Assembly (NCBI RefSeq): GCF_028735875.1
Contig: NZ_CP117834.1
Coordinates: forward strand, 3,832,001-3,896,000
Direction of reading: 5' to 3'
Length of the DNA stretch: 64,000 nucleotides
Source: Shouchella hunanensis
Lineage (GTDB): Bacteria; Bacillota; Bacilli; Bacillales; Bacillaceae_D
A model generated the notes under the pieces. It was not told the DNA's origin, did not search any database, and was given only the letters and a program-made list of their open reading frames with translations. Position numbers and translations under genes: made by a program. Positions 6,870 through 31,312 of this stretch are shown piece after piece. Numbering within the stretch: the stretch's first letter is position 1; each line of letters opens with the position of its first letter.

Positions 6870-6907
6870 AACAAACCCGCCTCTTTCGTTTTTTCCTCGT
6901 ACTATCC

Positions 6908-6936
6908 ATTATAGGGGAACGTATGATCGAAGTCAA
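6908..6936 (-). promoter_or_regulatory. dinB promoter with LexA box in the spacer
   Basis: On the minus strand TTGACT (6931-6936) and TATAAT (6908-6913) are 17 bases apart. The spacer reads CGATCATACGTTCC (6916-6929), a LexA box CGAACnnnnGTTCG with changes in the left half and at the last base. Confidence 0.8.
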
Positions 6937-7228
6937 TTAAATTCGGTTGTACCATTTCTAGCCAGAACTCTTAGGTACCAAAAAATGACTTCTCAACAAG
7001 AATAAATCTTTCTATTGAGATCTGGAGATAAACCACCTATTTGCTATGTTTCCTTTCAGAGTGGTTTCAAATAACGAGCATCACTGAAGAATAAACCTAA
7101 ACGCATATTTTATCGTGTCTAACAGTTAGAGGCATAGCTAATAGACACCTCTATTCAAACATTCTATAACTTGTAAATCCTATTAGCTTCATACAGTATC
7201 TATTCCATTAGATGCTTTTCCTATGTAT
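6937..7228. other. Gene-free AT-rich stretch
   Basis: No frame with a ribosome binding site was found on either strand. It holds an imperfect stem (TGTCT...AGACA, about 7116-7147) and AAACCAC/GTGGTTT arms (7031-7037 and 7060-7066). It may be decayed sequence at the edge of the coat-gene island. Confidence 0.4.
6970..6988. repeat. Left copy of a 19-bp imperfect direct repeat
   Basis: CTTAGGTACCAAAAAATGA matches CTTAAGTACCAAAAACTGA at 8407-8425 in 17 of 19 positions. The two copies flank the cotX/cotW-like island. Confidence 0.4.
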
Positions 7229-7255
7229 AAAGAGGGCGAACAACTCTCCCTCTTT
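7229..7255 (-). terminator. Terminator of the cotX-like gene
   Basis: AAAGAGGG (7229-7236) pairs with CCCTCTTT (7248-7255), just past the cotX stop. The T-run is short (TTTATA), so strength is uncertain. Confidence 0.65.
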
Positions 7256-7263
7256 TAAAACGA

Positions 7264-7770
7264 TTACAAGATATCTAATCTTACAAGCAACGCTAAAAGG
7301 ATTTGAAGCAAAAGTTGAATGTTAACGGCAATTTGTGTATCAGTTGTAGTAACATCAACATTTTTAGAGTTTTCAACAACAGTTTTTTGATAGTTTAACT
7401 GTTTGATTTTAGAACTTTGCAGAAGTTCTTGAGTGATCTTATCAGCTTTTTCGCTGTCTGCAATGGAAATACTGATGACTAACGCAATAGCGGTTTGTAA
7501 AGATGCTTGTAATGAAAGAGCTGCTTTCGTATCAGTAGAATTTACTGTTACATCACAAGAATCTTTAATTAGGATAAACTCTTCTGACAATTGCAATGTC
7601 TTGTTAACTTGTGAAGCACCTTGAGTAGGTGAACCTCCATTATTATCCATTGGATGACATGCTTCTGGATCTAAAGCCGACCAACGCTTGTTATTTCTCC
7701 AATGAGATTCGTGATCCTCACATTTCTTACACTCTTTTTCTTCAACTTCAATATGACTTTCTTCACTCAT
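7264..7770 (-). CDS. cotX: Spore coat protein X family (CotX)
   Basis: The protein is a component of the insoluble outer coat/crust. After a Cys/His-rich N-terminus (CKKCEDHES) comes WSALDPEACHPMD, close to the WVALDPDCDHPLD of B. subtilis CotX. Two Coat_X repeats follow, each of the form acidic/SCDVTVNSTDTKAALSLQ or NVDVTTTDTQIAVNIQ plus a long hydrophobic stretch. The length of 168 residues is typical. The ATG at 7770 has GAAGGGG ten bases upstream; the frame extends seven codons further without a binding site. A sigma-K-type promoter lies at 7801-7833, fitting late mother-cell expression. Confidence 0.9.
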   Translation of the reverse strand: MSEESHIEVEEKECKKCEDHESHWRNNKRWSALDPEACHPMDNNGGSPTQGASQVNKTLQLSEEFILIKDSCDVTVNSTDTKAALSLQASLQTAIALVISISIADSEKADKITQELLQSSKIKQLNYQKTVVENSKNVDVTTTDTQIAVNIQLLLQILLALLVRLDIL

Positions 7771-7800
7771 TTCTAATACCCCTTCCTTCATAGTCTACTT

Positions 7801-7833
7801 TACTTTATGTCGTAATATATTTTTTGCTTGGGC
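7801..7833 (-). promoter_or_regulatory. Sigma-K-type promoter of cotX
   Basis: On the minus strand CATAAAGTA (7801-7809) matches the sigma-K -10. It is preceded at a 15-base distance by GCCCAAGCA (7825-7833). The same arrangement occurs before the cotW-like gene with identical spacing. Confidence 0.65.
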
Positions 7834-22885: not shown

Positions 22886-23060
22886 TTCTATTGCTCTCCT
22901 TTCGTGCCAACAATCCATTCCCTCCATATTATACGTGGCAAAGCGGTAGAACACAATGACAACCGTTCTTTTCCTCTTCATTCGAGCTTCATGCGCATAA
23001 TTTCTGTCACTTGATCATTGATTAATAGTAATCGTGCACACATCATTGGAGGGATCTACG

Positions 23061-23867
23061 ATGATAACCATTCAAGATAAACCGTTAAATACATCTTCAT
23101 TACCAGCTTTATCCCAAATCGAAACAGCTATCATTCAAAGTTTGGCTAGTCAAAGCGTTTCCTACAACTACGCATCTTTACAAGAGTTGAGCTTCGAACT
23201 AGCGTTACGAAAACACACGATTCACGCTTCTATTAGTTTGTTGCAAAGCGGGGCTCGTTTTGAATCGTTTATGCGCTCAACTTGTAATCCACGCTTTTGG
23301 AGACGAATGCCTAATGGTGCTTTTCAATTAAATCCTTATGTTCGTCCATCTGATGCCATCGAGGATATTTTTCAAAATGGGCAGCTGTATGGCTTTGAGT
23401 GCGCAACGGCCATTATTATTATTTTTTATAAAGCAGTGAAAGACTCCATTGATCAACAATCCTTTGACCAATTGTTTCAGCAACTCTATTTATATTCTTG
23501 GGAACATGATGAAGATTTGCAGTTAGAAACACGAGCAGGAACAGACTACGTAATTGGTGACTGTCTTTACTTTGATAATCCTGATTTTGCACCTCAGCAC
23601 TCAGTATGGCGGGGAGAAAATGTTATTAAGCTTAATGATAATTTATACTATGGTCATGGAATTGCCATTCGCACGTCTGAAGAAATCATTTATCATTTGA
23701 ATCAAATGCGACGTCCTGGCGCAACTACCACGGCTCATTTACTTCCTCAAGTAACACGGTTAAACTTTACATTTGTGCGTACCTTTTCAAGCAATGGGTA
23801 TACACCAAGAACGTCTCTTGATTCTGCGGTTACCATTCAAACCGGCAACCAAACAAGATTATCGTAA
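23061..23867 (+). CDS. tgl: Spore coat transglutaminase Tgl
   Basis: Tgl crosslinks coat proteins such as GerQ by glutamyl-lysyl bonds. The catalytic triad of the small Bacillus enzyme is visible: C114 in YGFECATAI, E186 in WRGENVI and H199 in YYGHGIAI (C116, E187 and H200 in B. subtilis). The protein is 268 residues, about 23 longer than B. subtilis Tgl, because of a polar C-terminal tail. GGAGGG lies seven bases before the ATG at 23061. It sits on the plus strand between miaB and spoVS, where B. subtilis has tdh-kbl. Confidence 0.95.
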   Translation: MITIQDKPLNTSSLPALSQIETAIIQSLASQSVSYNYASLQELSFELALRKHTIHASISLLQSGARFESFMRSTCNPRFWRRMPNGAFQLNPYVRPSDAIEDIFQNGQLYGFECATAIIIIFYKAVKDSIDQQSFDQLFQQLYLYSWEHDEDLQLETRAGTDYVIGDCLYFDNPDFAPQHSVWRGENVIKLNDNLYYGHGIAIRTSEEIIYHLNQMRRPGATTTAHLLPQVTRLNFTFVRTFSSNGYTPRTSLDSAVTIQTGNQTRLS

Positions 23868-25101: not shown

Positions 25102-25130
25102 AAAATAAAGTGGCTTTCGCCACTTTATTT
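25102..25130 (-). terminator. Intrinsic terminator of rny
   Basis: AATAAAGTGGC pairs with GCCACTTTATT around a TTTC loop, followed by a T7 run on the minus strand. The stop codon of rny lies in the 3' arm region. Confidence 0.9.
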
Positions 25131-26702
25131 AGCATATTCAACTGCACGAGTTTCACGAATGACAGTAACACGTATATGTCCTGGATAATCTAGCTCTTGC
25201 TCAATCTTCTTCGTAATATCTCTAGCAAGACTGTGAGCTAGTGCGTCATCCACCACATCCGGTCTTACCATAATGCGTACCTCTCGACCGGCTTGAATCG
25301 CAAACGTCTTTTCAACACCATCAAATGATTCAGAGATCTCTTCTAGCTTCTCTAATCTTCGAATGTATGTTTCGAGGGTTTCACGTCTAGCACCAGGTCG
25401 AGCAGCTGATAATGCATCTGCTGCTGCAACAAGAGTGGAAATAATGGATGTCGCTTCTACATCGCCGTGATGTGAAGCAATCGAGTTGATCACAACTGGA
25501 TGCTCCTTGTATTTCGTCGCAAGCTCAACACCAATTTCAACATGGCTTCCTTCCACTTCATGATCAATTGCTTTTCCAATGTCGTGCAATAAACCTGCAC
25601 GCTTCGCTAGTTTAACATCCTCACCAAGTTCGGCAGCCATTAAGCCTGTCAAATGAGCGACTTCCATTGAATGTTTTAAGACATTTTGACCATAGCTTGT
25701 GCGGAAACGAAGTCGACCTAAAATCTTTATCAAATCAGGATGAAGACCATGAACGCCTACTTCAAATGTTGTTTGTTCACCATATTCACGTATCGTTTCA
25801 TCGACTTCTCTTCTTGATTTATCGACCATTTCTTCAATTCGAGCTGGATGAATTCGACCGTCTTGCACAAGTTTCTCTAACGCAGACCGCGCAATTTCAC
25901 GACGAATTGGATCAAAGCCAGAAAGAATAACCGCTTCCGGTGTGTCATCAATAATTAAATCAATACCTGTCAACGTCTCTAAGGCTCGAATGTTACGACC
26001 TTCGCGTCCGATAATGCGGCCTTTCATTTCGTCGTTCGGCAGATTCACTACTGAAACCGTTGTTTCGGCAACATGATCCGCTGAGCAACGTTGAATAGCG
26101 AGAGAAAGAATTTCTTTCGATCGCTTGTCCGCCGTTTCTTTTGCTTCAGCTAACTTTTCTTTAATGAGAATTGCTGACTCTTGAGCTACTTCTTGCTCAA
26201 CTTCTTGGCGTATAATCATTCGTGCTTCTTCTCGGCTTAAGCCAGACACCCGCTCTAATTCTTGTTTTTGGTCCAGCAGCAGCTGGCTCATTTTACTTTC
26301 CATCTCTTCAACTTGTCGTTGTTTTTTGGCGAGAGATTCCTCTCGTTTTTCTAATGACTCTTCTTTCTTATCGAGAGTTTCACTTTTCCGATCTAGAATC
26401 TCTTCTTTTTGAACCAAACGATGCTCTTGTTTCTGAATCTCATTTCTTCGCTCACGTACGTCGCGTTCTGCATCACTTCTTAGCTTGTGAACCTCGTCTT
26501 TTACTTCGAGAATCGCTTCTTTTTTGTTCGTTTCTGCTTCACGCGTCGCATCATCAATGATTTGCTTTGCTGCTTGCTCCGCACTTGAAATTTTCCGTTC
26601 AGCGATTGATTTTCGAACAAGATATCCAACAACTGCAAAAACTACAGAGAAAGCAAGTACAATGAGGCTTAGAACCAAGAGATTTAATTCAATGCTTGGC
26701 AT
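25125..26702 (-). CDS. rny: Ribonuclease Y
   Basis: RNase Y is the membrane-anchored endonuclease that starts most mRNA decay in Bacillus. It has an N-terminal membrane helix (about residues 5-27), a long charged coiled coil to about residue 190, a KH domain ([19 protein letters not shown]) and an HD domain ([12 protein letters not shown]). The length of 525 residues fits. The ATG at 26702 has GGGAGGT six bases upstream and yields [13 protein letters not shown]; the frame extends 15 codons further upstream. Confidence 0.97.
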
Positions 26703-26837
26703 CGTTACACCTCCCTTGCTATCCAATTGTTGGTTTAAATGTTTCACATTTGTTAATCAATAATGAATATATTCATAAAAATTCAACCGTGATACATTGT
26801 GTATCATCCATTATTTTACGCTTCACATCTTTTAATG

Positions 26838-27506
26838 TCAAGGGCTCGTCGCTTCTTCTACTTGGCTGATTCCATCCCGTATTGTTACGATAAATGCTTT
26901 ATCTCCTGATTCCGTTAAATGATGATTGTGCGTAATCATCAGTATCTGTCGATCAAACATTGTCGCAAGAGATTTTAAGAACTCATATAAATAATGCGTA
27001 TACTCTCCTGATACATGTTTTCCCGGTTCATCTAAGAGCAATGGACCTGATTGCCTCGGTTGAGTCGTTTCCATTAATGCGACACGTAGTGCAAGAGTAA
27101 CAATGTCTACGACCCCACCGCCTCTAGCATCCTGCGGCTTCGTTTTTATTTTCATACCATCGTAGTTAGAAACAACAAACATTTCTGCTACCGCTCTGTT
27201 ACCATGTTCTTCAAGTTCAATTTCAAAAGCGATCATTGGCCCAAATACATATTGCAGTGCGTTCGTTACTAATGTTTCCATTTGCTGCTTCGCTTGCTTT
27301 CGTGCATACTCTGCCGATTGCTGTAACAGCACTCTCGCTTTTTCATAGGTGTCAAGGGTTTCTTCATATTCCTTTAAAGCCACTGTTGCTTGTTGAATTT
27401 TCTCATTAATAACGTTTCGCTTCTCATCTAAGCGCGTCCACTGATCGTTCTTCTCTCTTAAAGCACGCTCAAGGGCAACAATTGATTCTTGATTTTGATT
27501 AGTCAC
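26838..27506 (-). CDS. Rad50/SbcC-type ATPase, C-terminal half
   Basis: The 222-residue protein begins with a coiled coil (about 5-85) and then shows the second half of an SMC/Rad50 ATPase. A signature-like DARGGGVVDIVTLALRVAL (about 125) is followed by Walker B PLLLDEPGKHVSGEY (about 153) and a switch-type LMITHNHHLT. There is no Walker A in this chain; it is in the separate protein encoded by 27747-29180. The GTG start overlaps the preceding stop by eight bases and has no good binding site, so it is probably made by reinitiation. It should pair with the N-terminal half to form an ATP-binding head. It is the last gene of the four-gene set downstream of recA. Confidence 0.8.
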   Translation of the reverse strand: MTNQNQESIVALERALREKNDQWTRLDEKRNVINEKIQQATVALKEYEETLDTYEKARVLLQQSAEYARKQAKQQMETLVTNALQYVFGPMIAFEIELEEHGNRAVAEMFVVSNYDGMKIKTKPQDARGGGVVDIVTLALRVALMETTQPRQSGPLLLDEPGKHVSGEYTHYLYEFLKSLATMFDRQILMITHNHHLTESGDKAFIVTIRDGISQVEEATSP

Positions 27507-27750
27507 GAGCGATCAATTCTTTCGGGATAAGTGACCATGCCCGTTCCATTGATTGCTCAATCTCTGCCTCTAACTTTACAATCTCTTCGTCTAAGTCTTC
27601 TGGCTGAACACCTAACTCTTCTAGTTCTTCAAGCAAGCGCTTCTTTTGATTCTCTAATTCTTCTAATTTTGCTTCTGCTCGATAACGCAGATCTTTTGCT
27701 TTATCAATGGCTTGCTTCATTTTATCTAAATCTTGCTCAACTTGTTTCAT
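27499..27750 (-). CDS. Small coiled-coil protein within the Mre11/Rad50-like operon
   Basis: This 83-residue, highly charged, all-helical protein (DKAKDLRYRAEAKLEELENQ and later EELEELGVQPEDLDEEIVKLEAE) has a break around GVQPED, suggesting a helical hairpin. I recognise no known domain. Its ATG overlaps the TGA of the N-terminal Rad50 half as ATGA, with AGGAGGAG just upstream. Its stop overlaps the GTG of the C-terminal half. It probably supplies part of the descending coil or an accessory arm of the split ATPase. Confidence 0.75.
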   Translation of the reverse strand: MKQVEQDLDKMKQAIDKAKDLRYRAEAKLEELENQKKRLLEELEELGVQPEDLDEEIVKLEAEIEQSMERAWSLIPKELIARD

Positions 27751-29180
27751 TTTGACTCCTCCTTCTGCTTTATTGGTTGTCCACATGTGGGACAAAGATT
27801 TAACGCGCTTAATGCCTCCGTATAACGTGCAACTTGTTCTTGTTCTTGTTGTTTGGAATGCGCTACAAACGCAGCCCCTTCTTCTAAACGCTTCTTTAAA
27901 AGCGTAATCTTTTCTTGGTAACGTGAAAGCACTTGCGTGCGTTCAAATGTTTGCGAAACACTTTCCGCTAGCGGATACGCTTGTAACACCGTATGTGCAA
28001 GCTGCTTTCGCTTTAATAACTCATTCTCTTCGTCAGTTGTTTTTTGCAGCCATTCTAAACGTTCTCGTAACTGTTGGGTTTTCATTACTTTCTTGCGTAA
28101 ATCCGTTACGTGTTCCTCATTAAACGATTGTAAAAAGTGTGTTCGCTCTAAGTGGCCTTTCAATGCCGCTATATTCTCTGTCACGTTTTCCTTATTCTTC
28201 TTAAGCCGCTGTAAATGGAGCGTCTGGGTCACCTTATTTGCTAATGCTTTCGCCAGCTGGTCAACCTCGTCAATCGACTCCGTTTTCGTAAGCCATGTCT
28301 GACAGGTTGAAAGGTCCTTTGAAATACGTTGCCACTCACTTTGGACAGAAGAAAGCTGATAGCGCTTTGCTGTTAATTGCTGTAATTTTAAAAATAGCAA
28401 CTCCCATGTATTTAGATCTTTTACCTTACGAATGGTTTGATCCAGTTGACTTTTTTGACCATTCAATTGCTTAAACTGTTCACTTAAACGTTTTAGTACT
28501 TGAACCTTTTGTGCATGTTCCTTTACTCGTTCAAGTAAACGAAAACCTTCGTCTAATTGCTGCTTTGCTTGATCAAGAGGCTTGAATGGTTCCAGTTCTT
28601 TCGCTGCTGCTTCTAATTCTTGTTCTTTCCATTTCACCCTTTGTGTTAGCTGTGAAACGTCTTTTGATGTATCACGAATTGCCATATCTAAATAATGAGC
28701 TCCACTCATTCTACCAATGGTTTTCGCTCGTATTGAACCGGTTTGTTCCAGTAAAAACGGTCCTTCTAATTGTTGAGCAATTTGCAGCTGCCACTCATGA
28801 TCGGCATCAATTCGAAACGGTCGCATTTGATGAGCGTTTAAGACTTCCTCTGGTACCGACGAACCGAAACCTTCCAATACGAGATCATCTTGACCCTTTT
28901 TTTTAATGATATAGCGGTTCTTCGATGACGTCCGTTCACGCACAAGTGTATGACCGTTTTCAAATTCAATTGTCACCCGTACAAAGTCCGCCCCGACTTT
29001 TAAAAAATCTGTCCCTCGTGGTTGATTAAAAAGTGCCCAGCGAACCCCTCTTAACACCGCTGTTTTACCACTATCTGATTGTCCGACAACAACGTTTAAA
29101 CCTTTGGATAAAGAAACCATTGTATCTAAATGAGATTGAAAATTCTCAAGCCGGACGGAAACCATTTTACTCAGTTTCAT
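27747..29180 (-). CDS. Rad50/SbcC-type ATPase, N-terminal half with zinc hook
   Basis: The 477-residue chain starts with the Rad50 N-lobe: VSVRLENFQSHLDT, Walker A VVVGQSDSGKTAVLRG (about 32-45) and FLKVGADFVRVTIEFENG. From about residue 175 it is a long coiled coil. It ends in NLCPTCGQPIKQKEESK, a CPTC zinc hook ten residues before the end of the protein. A full Rad50 would continue into a return coil and the Walker B half; here those are in the next two genes. The ATG at 29180 has GGGAG upstream and overlaps the nuclease gene by 14 bases. I infer a split Rad50 that joins through the hook and works with the Mre11-like nuclease. Confidence 0.82.
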   Translation of the reverse strand: MKLSKMVSVRLENFQSHLDTMVSLSKGLNVVVGQSDSGKTAVLRGVRWALFNQPRGTDFLKVGADFVRVTIEFENGHTLVRERTSSKNRYIIKKKGQDDLVLEGFGSSVPEEVLNAHQMRPFRIDADHEWQLQIAQQLEGPFLLEQTGSIRAKTIGRMSGAHYLDMAIRDTSKDVSQLTQRVKWKEQELEAAAKELEPFKPLDQAKQQLDEGFRLLERVKEHAQKVQVLKRLSEQFKQLNGQKSQLDQTIRKVKDLNTWELLFLKLQQLTAKRYQLSSVQSEWQRISKDLSTCQTWLTKTESIDEVDQLAKALANKVTQTLHLQRLKKNKENVTENIAALKGHLERTHFLQSFNEEHVTDLRKKVMKTQQLRERLEWLQKTTDEENELLKRKQLAHTVLQAYPLAESVSQTFERTQVLSRYQEKITLLKKRLEEGAAFVAHSKQQEQEQVARYTEALSALNLCPTCGQPIKQKEESK

Positions 29181-30156
29181 CACGCTCCCATCGCTCTTCT
29201 ATAAGCGTCATTCGCCTCAACGCCTCTTCTCTTACTTTTTCTTCCACATTGGACATGGCTGCGATTTCACGAATGATTTCACCCATTTGTAGCGTTTCAA
29301 AATTCGCTTTTTCTTTTACTTGCTGTACGAAGGCATGGAGCTTTTCCTCTTGATGGCTCGCTTTTTCTACGTAAGATCGATCTAAAACAGCTTCACCTTT
29401 TTGTGCTTTCAACTGTATCTCTTTCAACCTAATTCCAGATTCGTCTACTTCACCAAGGATGACAGTCGGCATCCGCTCTATTTCTGTCCAATGGTTGTTT
29501 ATTCGTGCTAGTGCACCTGGGTTGCAAATTAATGTACCGTCTTTTTCCTTAATGCCAAAACCACTATGAAAATGACCAGTGAAAATGACGTCTGCGGTTG
29601 TTCCCCAAATATGGTCAATTAATGTGTGGGGCACCCCTTCTGGTAGCGCTCTTTCAACGAGCATACTATGAACAAGGTGAATCATGTATGTAGCATCAGT
29701 TTCATTAACAGGGTAATAATCAAGCTTTGGGTCCCGTTGATCAAGGTCATAGTGGTAAGGTTGCCCAGATAGCTGAACCCGAACACCCTCTTTTTCTACT
29801 AAAACTGGTTGATCTGGGTGAATAAGGGTCATAATGCCAAAAGCATCAAGAAGCCCTAGCATCGTCCGTGTTACAGTTAAAGGATTATGCCCAAATGTGT
29901 CGTGATTGCCAGCTATCGCATAAATAGGTGCTTTCGCCTTTCTAAATAACTGCGCAAACTGCCCAACTGTGCTCGGCGACAAATCAGGTCGGTCGAACAC
30001 ATCTCCACCATGGAGTAAAAAATCCACCTGATGCTCGTTAGCCAAAGCCATTACTTGATCAATTTTATCTTTAATAGTATCAGGAAACGAGTCTAAACGA
30101 TTTTTCGGGGTCGTACCACGTATATGCGTATCAGTAAAGTAAAGGAATGATATCAT
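29167..30156 (-). CDS. Mre11/SbcD-type nuclease
   Basis: This 329-residue metallophosphoesterase has all Mre11 motifs: D9 and H11 in FTDTHIRG, GDVFD (51-55), AGNHD (82-86), H163 in LVHSML and GHFH (194-197), so it should bind two metals and cut DNA ends. The C-terminal part (about 245-329) is helical and charged and could contact the ATPase coil. GAAGGA lies six bases before the ATG. It is the first gene after the recA terminator and heads four overlapping genes. It is closer in organisation to phage gp46/gp47-like pairs than to chromosomal sbcDC; that comparison is from memory of the families. Confidence 0.85.
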   Translation of the reverse strand: MISFLYFTDTHIRGTTPKNRLDSFPDTIKDKIDQVMALANEHQVDFLLHGGDVFDRPDLSPSTVGQFAQLFRKAKAPIYAIAGNHDTFGHNPLTVTRTMLGLLDAFGIMTLIHPDQPVLVEKEGVRVQLSGQPYHYDLDQRDPKLDYYPVNETDATYMIHLVHSMLVERALPEGVPHTLIDHIWGTTADVIFTGHFHSGFGIKEKDGTLICNPGALARINNHWTEIERMPTVILGEVDESGIRLKEIQLKAQKGEAVLDRSYVEKASHQEEKLHAFVQQVKEKANFETLQMGEIIREIAAMSNVEEKVREEALRRMTLIEERWERDETE

Positions 30157-30218
30157 ACTATATCCTTCGTTCCTTTCGTTGTTAAACTATTTCTTTCTTT
30201 AAAGGGTACCATTATGAT

Positions 30219-30254
30219 AAAAGACTTTCCTTTTAAAAAACAGGAAAGTCTTTT
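30219..30254 (-). terminator. Intrinsic terminator of recA
   Basis: AAAAGACTTTCCT (30219-30231) and AGGAAAGTCTTTT (30242-30254) form a 13-bp stem. It is followed on the minus strand by TTTTATC. It separates recA from the nuclease operon. Confidence 0.92.
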
Positions 30255-30262
30255 GGCTATTA

Positions 30263-31312
30263 CTATTTTAAATCTAGAGGAACATCTTCAAAAGATTCTT
30301 TATCAGCTTCTTCTACTTTTACTTCTCCATCAAGATTGTGCTCATCACGAATTTTCCGTTCGATTTCAGCTGTAATCTCCACGTTTTCTTTTAGGAATTG
30401 TTTCGAGTTCTCACGACCTTGACCTAAGCGATCACCGTTGTAAGAATACCACGCACCACTCTTATCCACAATCTCTAAATCCGTAGCAATATCAAGAATG
30501 GATCCTTCTCTTGAAATTCCTTCGCCATACATAATATCCACTTCAGCAAGGCGGAATGGAGGCGCTACTTTGTTTTTCACTACTTTAATTTTGGTACGGT
30601 TTCCGACAATATCGTTTCCTTGTTTCAGTGCCTCAGCCCGTCGCACTTCTAAACGAACAGAAGAATAGAACTTAAGCGCACGTCCACCTGGAGTTGTTTC
30701 GGGGTTTCCGAACATCACGCCGACTTTTTCACGAATTTGATTGATAAAGACCGCTACGGTTTTCGATTTGTTAATTGCGCCAGATAGTTTTCTTAACGCT
30801 TGCGACATCAAACGAGCCTGCAAGCCGACGTGAGAATCTCCCATTTCGCCTTCAATCTCTGCTTTCGGAACAAGAGCAGCGACACTATCAATAACAATCA
30901 TATCCAGAGCGCCACTTCGTACAAGCGCCTCAGCGATTTCTAATGCTTGTTCGCCTGTGTCAGGTTGAGACAGAAGCAATTCGTCTACATTTACACCAAG
31001 TTTACCAGCATAAACAGGGTCTAAAGCGTGCTCTGCATCAATAAATGCAGCTTGACCACCTTGACGTTGTACTTCAGCAATAGCGTGAAGAGCAACTGTC
31101 GTTTTACCAGAAGACTCTGGTCCGTAAACTTCAATAACTCTACCTTTTGGATAGCCACCAACACCTAAAGCAATATCTAAAGCTAGTGCACCACTTGAAA
31201 CGGTTGAGATTCGTTGCTCCGCTCTCTCTCCTAATTTCATGACAGAACCTTTACCAAACTGCTTTTCGATCTGGCGTAAGGCCATATCTAACGCTTGTTT
31301 CCGATCACTCAT
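30263..31312 (-). CDS. recA: Recombinase RecA
   Basis: RecA forms filaments on single-stranded DNA for strand exchange and triggers LexA cleavage. The 349-residue protein has Walker [14 protein letters not shown] (about 63), [13 protein letters not shown] for Walker B, loop L1 ([16 protein letters not shown]) and L2 ([22 protein letters not shown]). AAAGGAG precedes the ATG. It has its own SOS promoter and terminator and is separated from cinA by a helicase gene, unlike the usual cinA-recA pair. Confidence 0.99.

Follow-up and report, generated by a model that had tools for sequence, protein, structure and literature searches.

Four adjacent genes of Shouchella hunanensis, within the 64,000-nucleotide stretch analysed here (contig NZ_CP117834.1, positions 3,832,001 to 3,896,000; referred to as the window), encode a Mre11-Rad50 system in which Rad50 is divided into two polypeptides and is accompanied by a small helical protein. 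This is a real and widespread Mre11-Rad50 variant with a new conserved subunit family. The genes for Mre11, the Rad50 N-half, the small protein (small) and the Rad50 C-half all lie on the minus strand, flanked by recA and rny (Table 1), and we consider it probable, judging from their sequences, that the products form a diverged heteromeric Mre11-Rad50 complex with a two-piece Rad50 and an extra arm or hook subunit, preparing DNA ends for RecA. A real four-gene split system beside recA had been proposed in an original prediction made from this DNA alone, and relatives in chromosomes, phages and plasmids now support it. The successive gene overlaps of 14, 4 and 8 bases that it described are present at the positions given, and are identical in a 100%-identical relative (L062).

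Anatomy of Mre11 and the two Rad50 halves

The Mre11-like protein carries the five predicted metal motifs, recognised by eye as DTH, GGDVFDR, GNHD, LVHSM and GHFH. It matches Pfam PF00149 Metallophos (4.9e-13, above the family cut-off), and loose patterns for the four motifs that were scored recur in 106–111 of 113 sequences per motif. The N-half contains a Walker A motif, a loose pattern of which is present in 111 of 113 N-halves, and a CPTC motif near its end; both had been predicted, although the hook motif lies one residue farther from the end than the ten originally stated. C463, P464 and C466 are invariant in 60 aligned N-halves chosen among complete ones. N-halves are complete in 34 of the 36 relatives whose regions were fetched, and all 34 end 6–19 residues past CPxC. 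The N-half profile matches the Rad50 N-lobe chains 1f2t_A/1ii8_A in the PDB and, weakly (8e-4 to 1e-3), the zinc-hook structure chains 1l8d and 6zff, and the protein corresponds to phrog_16465 ('exonuclease', 7.4e-66) in PHROGs.

The C-half contains the signature-like GGGVVDIV and the Walker B motif, both as predicted, and an H-loop (ITHN in the window), with loose Walker B and H-loop patterns found in 121 and 122 of 122 C-halves, respectively. Its profile matches the Rad50 C-lobe chains 1f2t_B/1ii8_B, its PHROG is phrog_15167 ('ATPase', 1.2e-60), and the best PDB sequence matches of both halves are Rad50. Walker A, Q-loop, signature, Walker B and H-loop are all present, spread over two chains, together with a CxxC zinc-hook motif (a sequence motif with a weak structure-profile match); the arrangement with both ATPase lobes on one chain and the hook mid-way along a paired coil is not seen.

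The other two of the 36 relatives have an interrupted N frame. Interruptions of N, or of mre11 and rny, occur in L118 and L127 (the same genomes as L096 and L097), and also in L101; these are drafts of Halalkalibacter akibai JCM 9157, Bacillus sp. JCM 19034 and Bacillus sp. JCM 19041, and the breaks are perhaps sequencing errors.

Distribution in chromosomes, phages and plasmids

The C-half is present in all 41 genomes of the host family and all seven genera, with a single match in each and an open frame of 221–251 amino acids (aa); that of the window is 100% identical to the C-half of Shouchella miscanthi AK13. Among 36 regions fetched from carriers of the host family and order, 35 preserve the arrangement cinA-recA-mre11-N-small-C-rny, and the remaining one sits on a contig that begins at mre11; the placement with recA is confirmed. 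In a scan of species genomes the best 80 of 207 relatives were kept, and these come from Bacillaceae, Thermoactinomycetaceae, Peptoniphilus, Caloramator, Halobacteroidaceae, Thermoanaerobacteraceae and others. All four genes are found in 73 of the 80 loci; the four are accompanied by recA in the fetched stretch in 66 and by rny in 66, with rny on the opposite strand in three (L155, L158 and L175).

Viral contigs carry all four genes in 38 of 42 instances, with Mre11 mostly downstream of C. Five of the eight fetched plasmids (Geobacillus, Paenibacillaceae) encode Mre11 and the N-half fused in one chain, followed by small and then C, and an Alkaliphilus plasmid has the same four-gene order as the window. 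On a C-half tree of 66 rows, built by a quick method, the chromosome label requires 2 changes, the viral label 4, and the plasmid label 3.

The two halves are encoded apart in several relatives

A lone C-half is found in 7 of the 80 genome loci, and in all seven of those genomes the N-half lies elsewhere, on another contig, where mre11, N and small stand together; this trio is beside rimO and pgsA in L231 (by model) and likewise in L228 (by eye). In a complete Jeotgalibacillus megaplasmid, N and small are located at 375–377 kb and C at 450 kb, placing the halves 73 kb apart. In the complete phage Tunturi_5 the C-half is about 107 kb from the N-half, which lies in a cluster composed of a UvsX-like recombinase gene, a short gene, the hook-ended N-half itself (CGKC, 485 aa) and a gene for a 97-aa protein matched by the small model at E 0.014 only. 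With the halves this far apart in two complete records, a megaplasmid and a phage, they cannot be joined by a frameshift or by read-through.

If the split reflected a mistake in sequencing, gene decay or programmed frameshifting, one Rad50 chain would be made in life, and the slight overlaps in the window (4 and 8 bases), as well as the broken N frame in two of 36 relatives, could be read in that way. The overlap of N and small is not general, however, as the two genes are 1–45 bases apart in 27 of 34 relatives (with script-chosen starts), and in phage vB_BboS-125 an AP2-domain gene (gp33) intervenes between them. The hook terminates the chain in every complete relative, and the separation of the halves, on different contigs in seven of seven genomes and at a great distance in Tunturi_5, leaves this explanation extremely improbable; we reject a frameshift or assembly artefact on the grounds of the unlinked halves. 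We also tested whether relatives carry one uninterrupted gene, and met only a coil-less fusion in three genomes of one family code (described below), a form which gives no evidence that the split is an error. Phage vB_BboS-125 also has a Mre11-like gene without annotation, positioned after gp36 (NC_048735.1 22426-23352; L011 ~6896-7822).

Co-occurrence of the four genes

Among 398 Bacillota genomes, scored with thresholds of E <= 1e-12 for the C-half and the N-half and E <= 1e-5 for small, and with at most 7 (C-half), 13 (small) and 4 (N-half) candidates per genome, we found the C-half in 65, small in 61, and the N-half in 67. Every one of the 65 genomes with a C-half also has an N-half, and the 61 with small all fall within this group; the 333 genomes lacking the C-half gave no small match. 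Nine of the small matches extend across one stop codon, which is probably the gene end. Four C-half carriers have no small match (G282, G597, G535 and G393), and in the first three of these, all of one family code (f94), Mre11, the N-lobe and the C-lobe are combined in a single chain (frames of 686–702 aa) that lacks CxxC and, judged from the profile matches, has almost no space for a coil. Three of the four carriers lacking small are coil-less and hook-less, which points to the arm as the place of the small protein. The N-half of phage Magritte likewise lacks CxxC, and no small match is present in its complete record.

The f94 chains are located at L255:5655-7739 (G282), L256:4779-6815 (G597) and L257:5586-7670 (G535). 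They adjoin addB (TIGR02773, 1223 bits, in L255), and addA lies beside them (TIGR02785, 631/708 bits, on a piece cut by the end of L257; by eye in L256). Two C-half and two small copies per genome occur in G308, G346 and G530, and in the second copy of G346 (L264) Mre11 follows C, as in the viral contigs. One genome (G272) has an N-half match and no C-half, with only 47 residues matched inside a longer frame, and L203 gave a weak small match in one scan and none in another.

Properties of the small subunit

The third gene had been described as encoding an 83-residue coiled coil, and the 83-aa product is helical in an AlphaFold2 model (mean predicted local distance difference test score, pLDDT, 87.1; predicted template modelling score, pTM, 0.44) with a first helix of 44 residues. 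Its length is near-fixed, at 77–92 aa in 73 genome loci. It corresponds to phrog_18563 (unknown function, 4.1e-8), and no Pfam or NCBIfam family matches it above its cut-off; the Pfam, NCBIfam and PDB matches that were found look like chance coils and were rejected.

We compared identities across 71 genomes that carry the full set of four genes with an N-half longer than 400 aa (2485 pairs, or 2415 for the C-coil). The median identity of small is 0.44, compared with 0.50 for Mre11, 0.50 for the N-lobe and 0.58 for the C-head on the one hand, and 0.18 for the N-coil and 0.29 for the C-coil on the other. The ratio of nonsynonymous to synonymous substitution (dN/dS) of small is 0.076 relative to S. 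oshimensis, the sole value available as the other four of five relatives are saturated. By these values the small protein is conserved like the enzymes and unlike the coil, and since both identity and dN/dS show constraint, it is not a passive spacer. No natural fusion of small to N or C was found among 122 loci (80 genome and 42 viral).

Length of the coiled arm

The distance from Walker A to the hook was measured in 137 N-halves. The main class contains 96 proteins with distances of 422–439 residues and a second contains 24 with 473–486; shorter distances are 380–385 (7 proteins) and 329–331 (4), and single proteins have 292, 309, 389, 393, 411 and 445. A lag of 47 residues is the top of the N-coil's own autocorrelation and was fixed before the distances were tested. 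Outside the main class, 20 of 24 representatives of lineages grouped by hand lie no more than 10 from a multiple of 47 (p 1.2e-4); a Rayleigh measure of the distances peaks at 47–48. The autocorrelation at lag 47 alone fails against shuffles (z 3.06 vs a 95% level of 3.33), and a joint test of lag 47 and its double passes (10 of 2000 shuffles). The Walker A-to-hook distances thus fall in steps of about 47 residues.

An AlphaFold2 model of the N-half made with 60 sequences (mean pLDDT 80.7, pTM 0.37) has predicted helices at residues 161-254, 256-299, 303-346 and 356-459, the two inner ones having 44 residues.

SbcC and SbcD in the host and in other carriers

We searched the host genome (4.06 Mb, one contig) for a separate SbcC, a check that the original prediction had proposed. 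At E <= 0.001 there is one match to the window Mre11. The sbcC model finds only a 559-aa RecN-like frame (all 50 candidates scored), and nothing exceeds the sbcC (TIGR00618) cut-off. Full-length AAA_23 matches, among 150 of 152 candidates, are restricted to this N-half and a 1207-aa frame, which we take from its length to be SMC; the RecN-like frame matches AAA_23 over 1–177 of 201, and the remaining matches are short or weak. No canonical SbcC was therefore recognised by the sbcC and AAA_23 searches (no genome search with the sbcD model was made). The window Mre11 scores 34 bits, below the sbcD (TIGR00619) cut-off of 77.65. The sbcC cut-off is passed in none of 199 genomes of the order, and as it also fails the SbcC of Bacilli, architecture counts for more than scores.

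In these 199 genomes, with an sbcC hit taken at E <= 1e-10 and the 3 best candidates per genome scored, the C-half is present in 14 and an sbcC hit in 176. Eight of the 14 carriers have no sbcC hit, one has a weak hit (G005, 8e-13) and five have full-length hits (G181 in two pieces), compared with 15 without a hit among 185 non-carriers. Carriage is associated with sbcC absence (Fisher p 1.8e-5, counting G005 as having sbcC), although the genomes are not independent because 8 of the 14 carriers are of one family.

The coil and hook of the N-half align with a profile of four SbcC sequences (hhalign probability 96.9), and the C-half and small do not (probabilities of 1.5 and 3.4). In spite of the N-half alignment, we reject an ordinary SbcCD on architecture and scores.

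Organization of the locus and its surroundings

Table 1. Positions of the four genes, their motifs and the flanking genes in the window.
Feature	Position	Strand	Description
Mre11/SbcD-like metallophosphoesterase, 329 aa	29167..30156	-	five metal motifs; Pfam Metallophos; PDB Mre11 matches
Rad50 N-half, 477 aa from ATG	27747..29180	-	lobe I (Walker A, Q-loop), helical arm, terminal zinc-hook motif
Walker A GQSDSGKT	29061..29084	-	G33, G38, K39 invariant in 60 N-half sequences
CPTC zinc-hook motif (predicted)	27783..27794	-	11 residues before chain end
Small helical subunit, 83 aa	27499..27750	-	predicted helix 2-45, turn, helix 50-74
Rad50 C-half, 222 aa, GTG start	26838..27506	-	~70-residue coil, then lobe II (signature, Walker B, H-loop)
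Signature-like GGGVVDIV	27099..27122	-	C-half
Walker B LLLDEP	27024..27041	-	C-half
recA	30263..31312	-	directly upstream of mre11
rny	25125..26747	-	directly downstream of C-half

An inverted repeat seen by eye between recA and mre11 (30214-30262) may terminate the recA transcript; it is absent from the list given by a terminator scan. A promoter scan gave 8 matches, not above the shuffle mean of 8.0, and we therefore claim no operon boundary. A plus-strand open frame of 277 aa is located at 23034-23867 amid minus-strand genes.

A proposed complex and its alternatives

In the complex that we propose, the N-half would bring lobe I, the long helical arm and the terminal hook, and the C-half the short coil and lobe II. 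Because neither half alone can form an ATP site, we infer that the two assemble in trans, in a manner like that of the two Rad50 fragments in crystal structures (1f2t_A, 1f2t_B). By what is known of Rad50, Mre11 would bind at the root of the arm, and the small subunit may bind the outer, hook-bearing part of the N-arm, supplying the antiparallel return helix lost from the cut chain. It is likely, we infer, that one arm is built from three chains. Mre11, a predicted nuclease, would act under the control of ATP to cut DNA ends that are blocked or form hairpins; the processed ends would pass to RecA, a job done by SbcCD in other genomes.

Several observations weigh against this proposal. The seven genomes with unlinked halves are metagenome-assembled, so false binning is possible in any single one of them, and at the pTM values of the AlphaFold2 models of the N-half and small the helix arrangement is unreliable in both. 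The N-arm spans about 300 residues (161-459), compared with about 70 in the C-half coil and 69 (44+25) in small, and the predicted return helices fall well short of the N-arm, so an arm paired simply one to one does not close. To the extent that the models detect them, hooks and small genes are not always found together. G393 has a hook-ended N and C with no small match, and its small gene may be out of sight because the contigs are only 3–4 kb; G523 has mre11 and a hook-ended N (512 aa, with CPTC 18 residues from the end) on a 3.4-kb contig, and neither C-half nor small was detected in the 398-genome scan. Locus L161 (Caloramator) has a small gene and a 441-aa N frame, which may be a broken one, without CxxC. 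The N-half of phage Mvi-JY20 carries CSQC close to its end, but the small model finds nothing in this phage and does not recognise a 94-aa coil gene that precedes the C-half. Finally, 6 of the 14 carriers in the order have an sbcC hit, so that the system is not strictly a replacement for SbcC.

The return path would be solved by several small subunits per arm, or by a folded arm. A form of the first, which we regard as rather unlikely, is a modular rod in which the N-arm consists of units of about 47 residues (a 44-residue helix plus linker) gained and lost whole, with small binding in register. The 44-residue first helix of small would then pair with the units, perhaps in several copies per arm, and about three copies would make up for the shortness of the C-half coil. 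If this is true, Rad50 would be a rod tiled with multiple copies of a separate subunit, and we know of no such architecture among SMC-like proteins.

A different place for the small protein is possible, although we hold it to be the less likely one, namely that it regulates or chaperones the complex, for instance by controlling hook dimerisation or Mre11, and is not part of the arm. Its conservation, near that of the enzymes and not that of the coil, its near-fixed length, and its position following N even where C is unlinked are all consistent with this. Forms without coil and hook that retain Mre11 and both lobes also lack the small protein, which ties it instead to the arm, but a regulator acting through the hook would fit this pattern as well. 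That the locus is a mobile-element or anti-phage defence module of the Lamassu type, parked beside recA, is suggested by the match of the N-half to LmuB (6.7e-17) and by the relatives on phages and plasmids. We nonetheless consider this highly unlikely, as the module is a single match in each of the 41 family genomes, its neighbours are recA and rny, recA accompanies it in the fetched stretch in 66 of 80 loci, which span several families of Bacilli and Clostridia, and the chromosome label needs just two changes on the C-half tree by the quick method used.

Comparison with known systems

The preferred reading, a heteromeric Mre11-Rad50 with a two-piece Rad50, shares with the archaeal and eukaryotic complexes the Mre11 metal motifs, lobes I and II and the CPxC hook, and differs from them in having two Rad50 polypeptides, a chain ending at the hook, and an extra subunit of 77-92 aa. 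It resembles SbcCD in domain order and in its presumed role at DNA ends, whereas canonical SbcC is a single polypeptide of about 1040 aa that carries CxxC roughly half-way along (519-521 in L058-L060). Phage T4 gp46/gp47 is a phage Mre11/Rad50 that works with a recombinase; it is alike in this respect, and unlike in that gp46 is one unsplit chain. With Lamassu LmuB (as modelled in PADLOC) there is a Rad50-like ATPase in common; Lamassu clusters carry the effector gene LmuA, and the LmuB model is one chain of 611 positions, of which the N-half and the C-half each match only part (no search with an LmuA model was made).

Two Mre11/Rad50 fusions, from Anaerostipes and a Bacillus phage, have been described in which one nucleoside triphosphatase (NTPase) segment was not observed (PMC3175470). 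Fusions of Mre11 and N-half also occur in the plasmids of Geobacillus and Paenibacillaceae, which may be of a similar kind, and the part of that paper dealing with them names no separate C-half or small partner. The split system may offer an explanation for their missing NTPase segment.

No account of the split was found in the open-licence full texts that were searched. Mre11-Rad50 is among the most studied of repair machines, and its Rad50 is regarded as a single chain that folds back on itself at the hook. A chain cut at the hook, with separable halves and a conserved subunit, provides a natural test of the function of the coiled arm and hook, as one can leave the arm out, set natural forms that differ by unit steps side by side, or use for comparison the coil-less form beside addAB. 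The latter, a chain of about 690 aa, is a minimal Mre11-Rad50 suited to structural work. The system gives a likely role to three protein families with vague or no names in PHROGs, and it may explain how some Bacilli live without SbcC.

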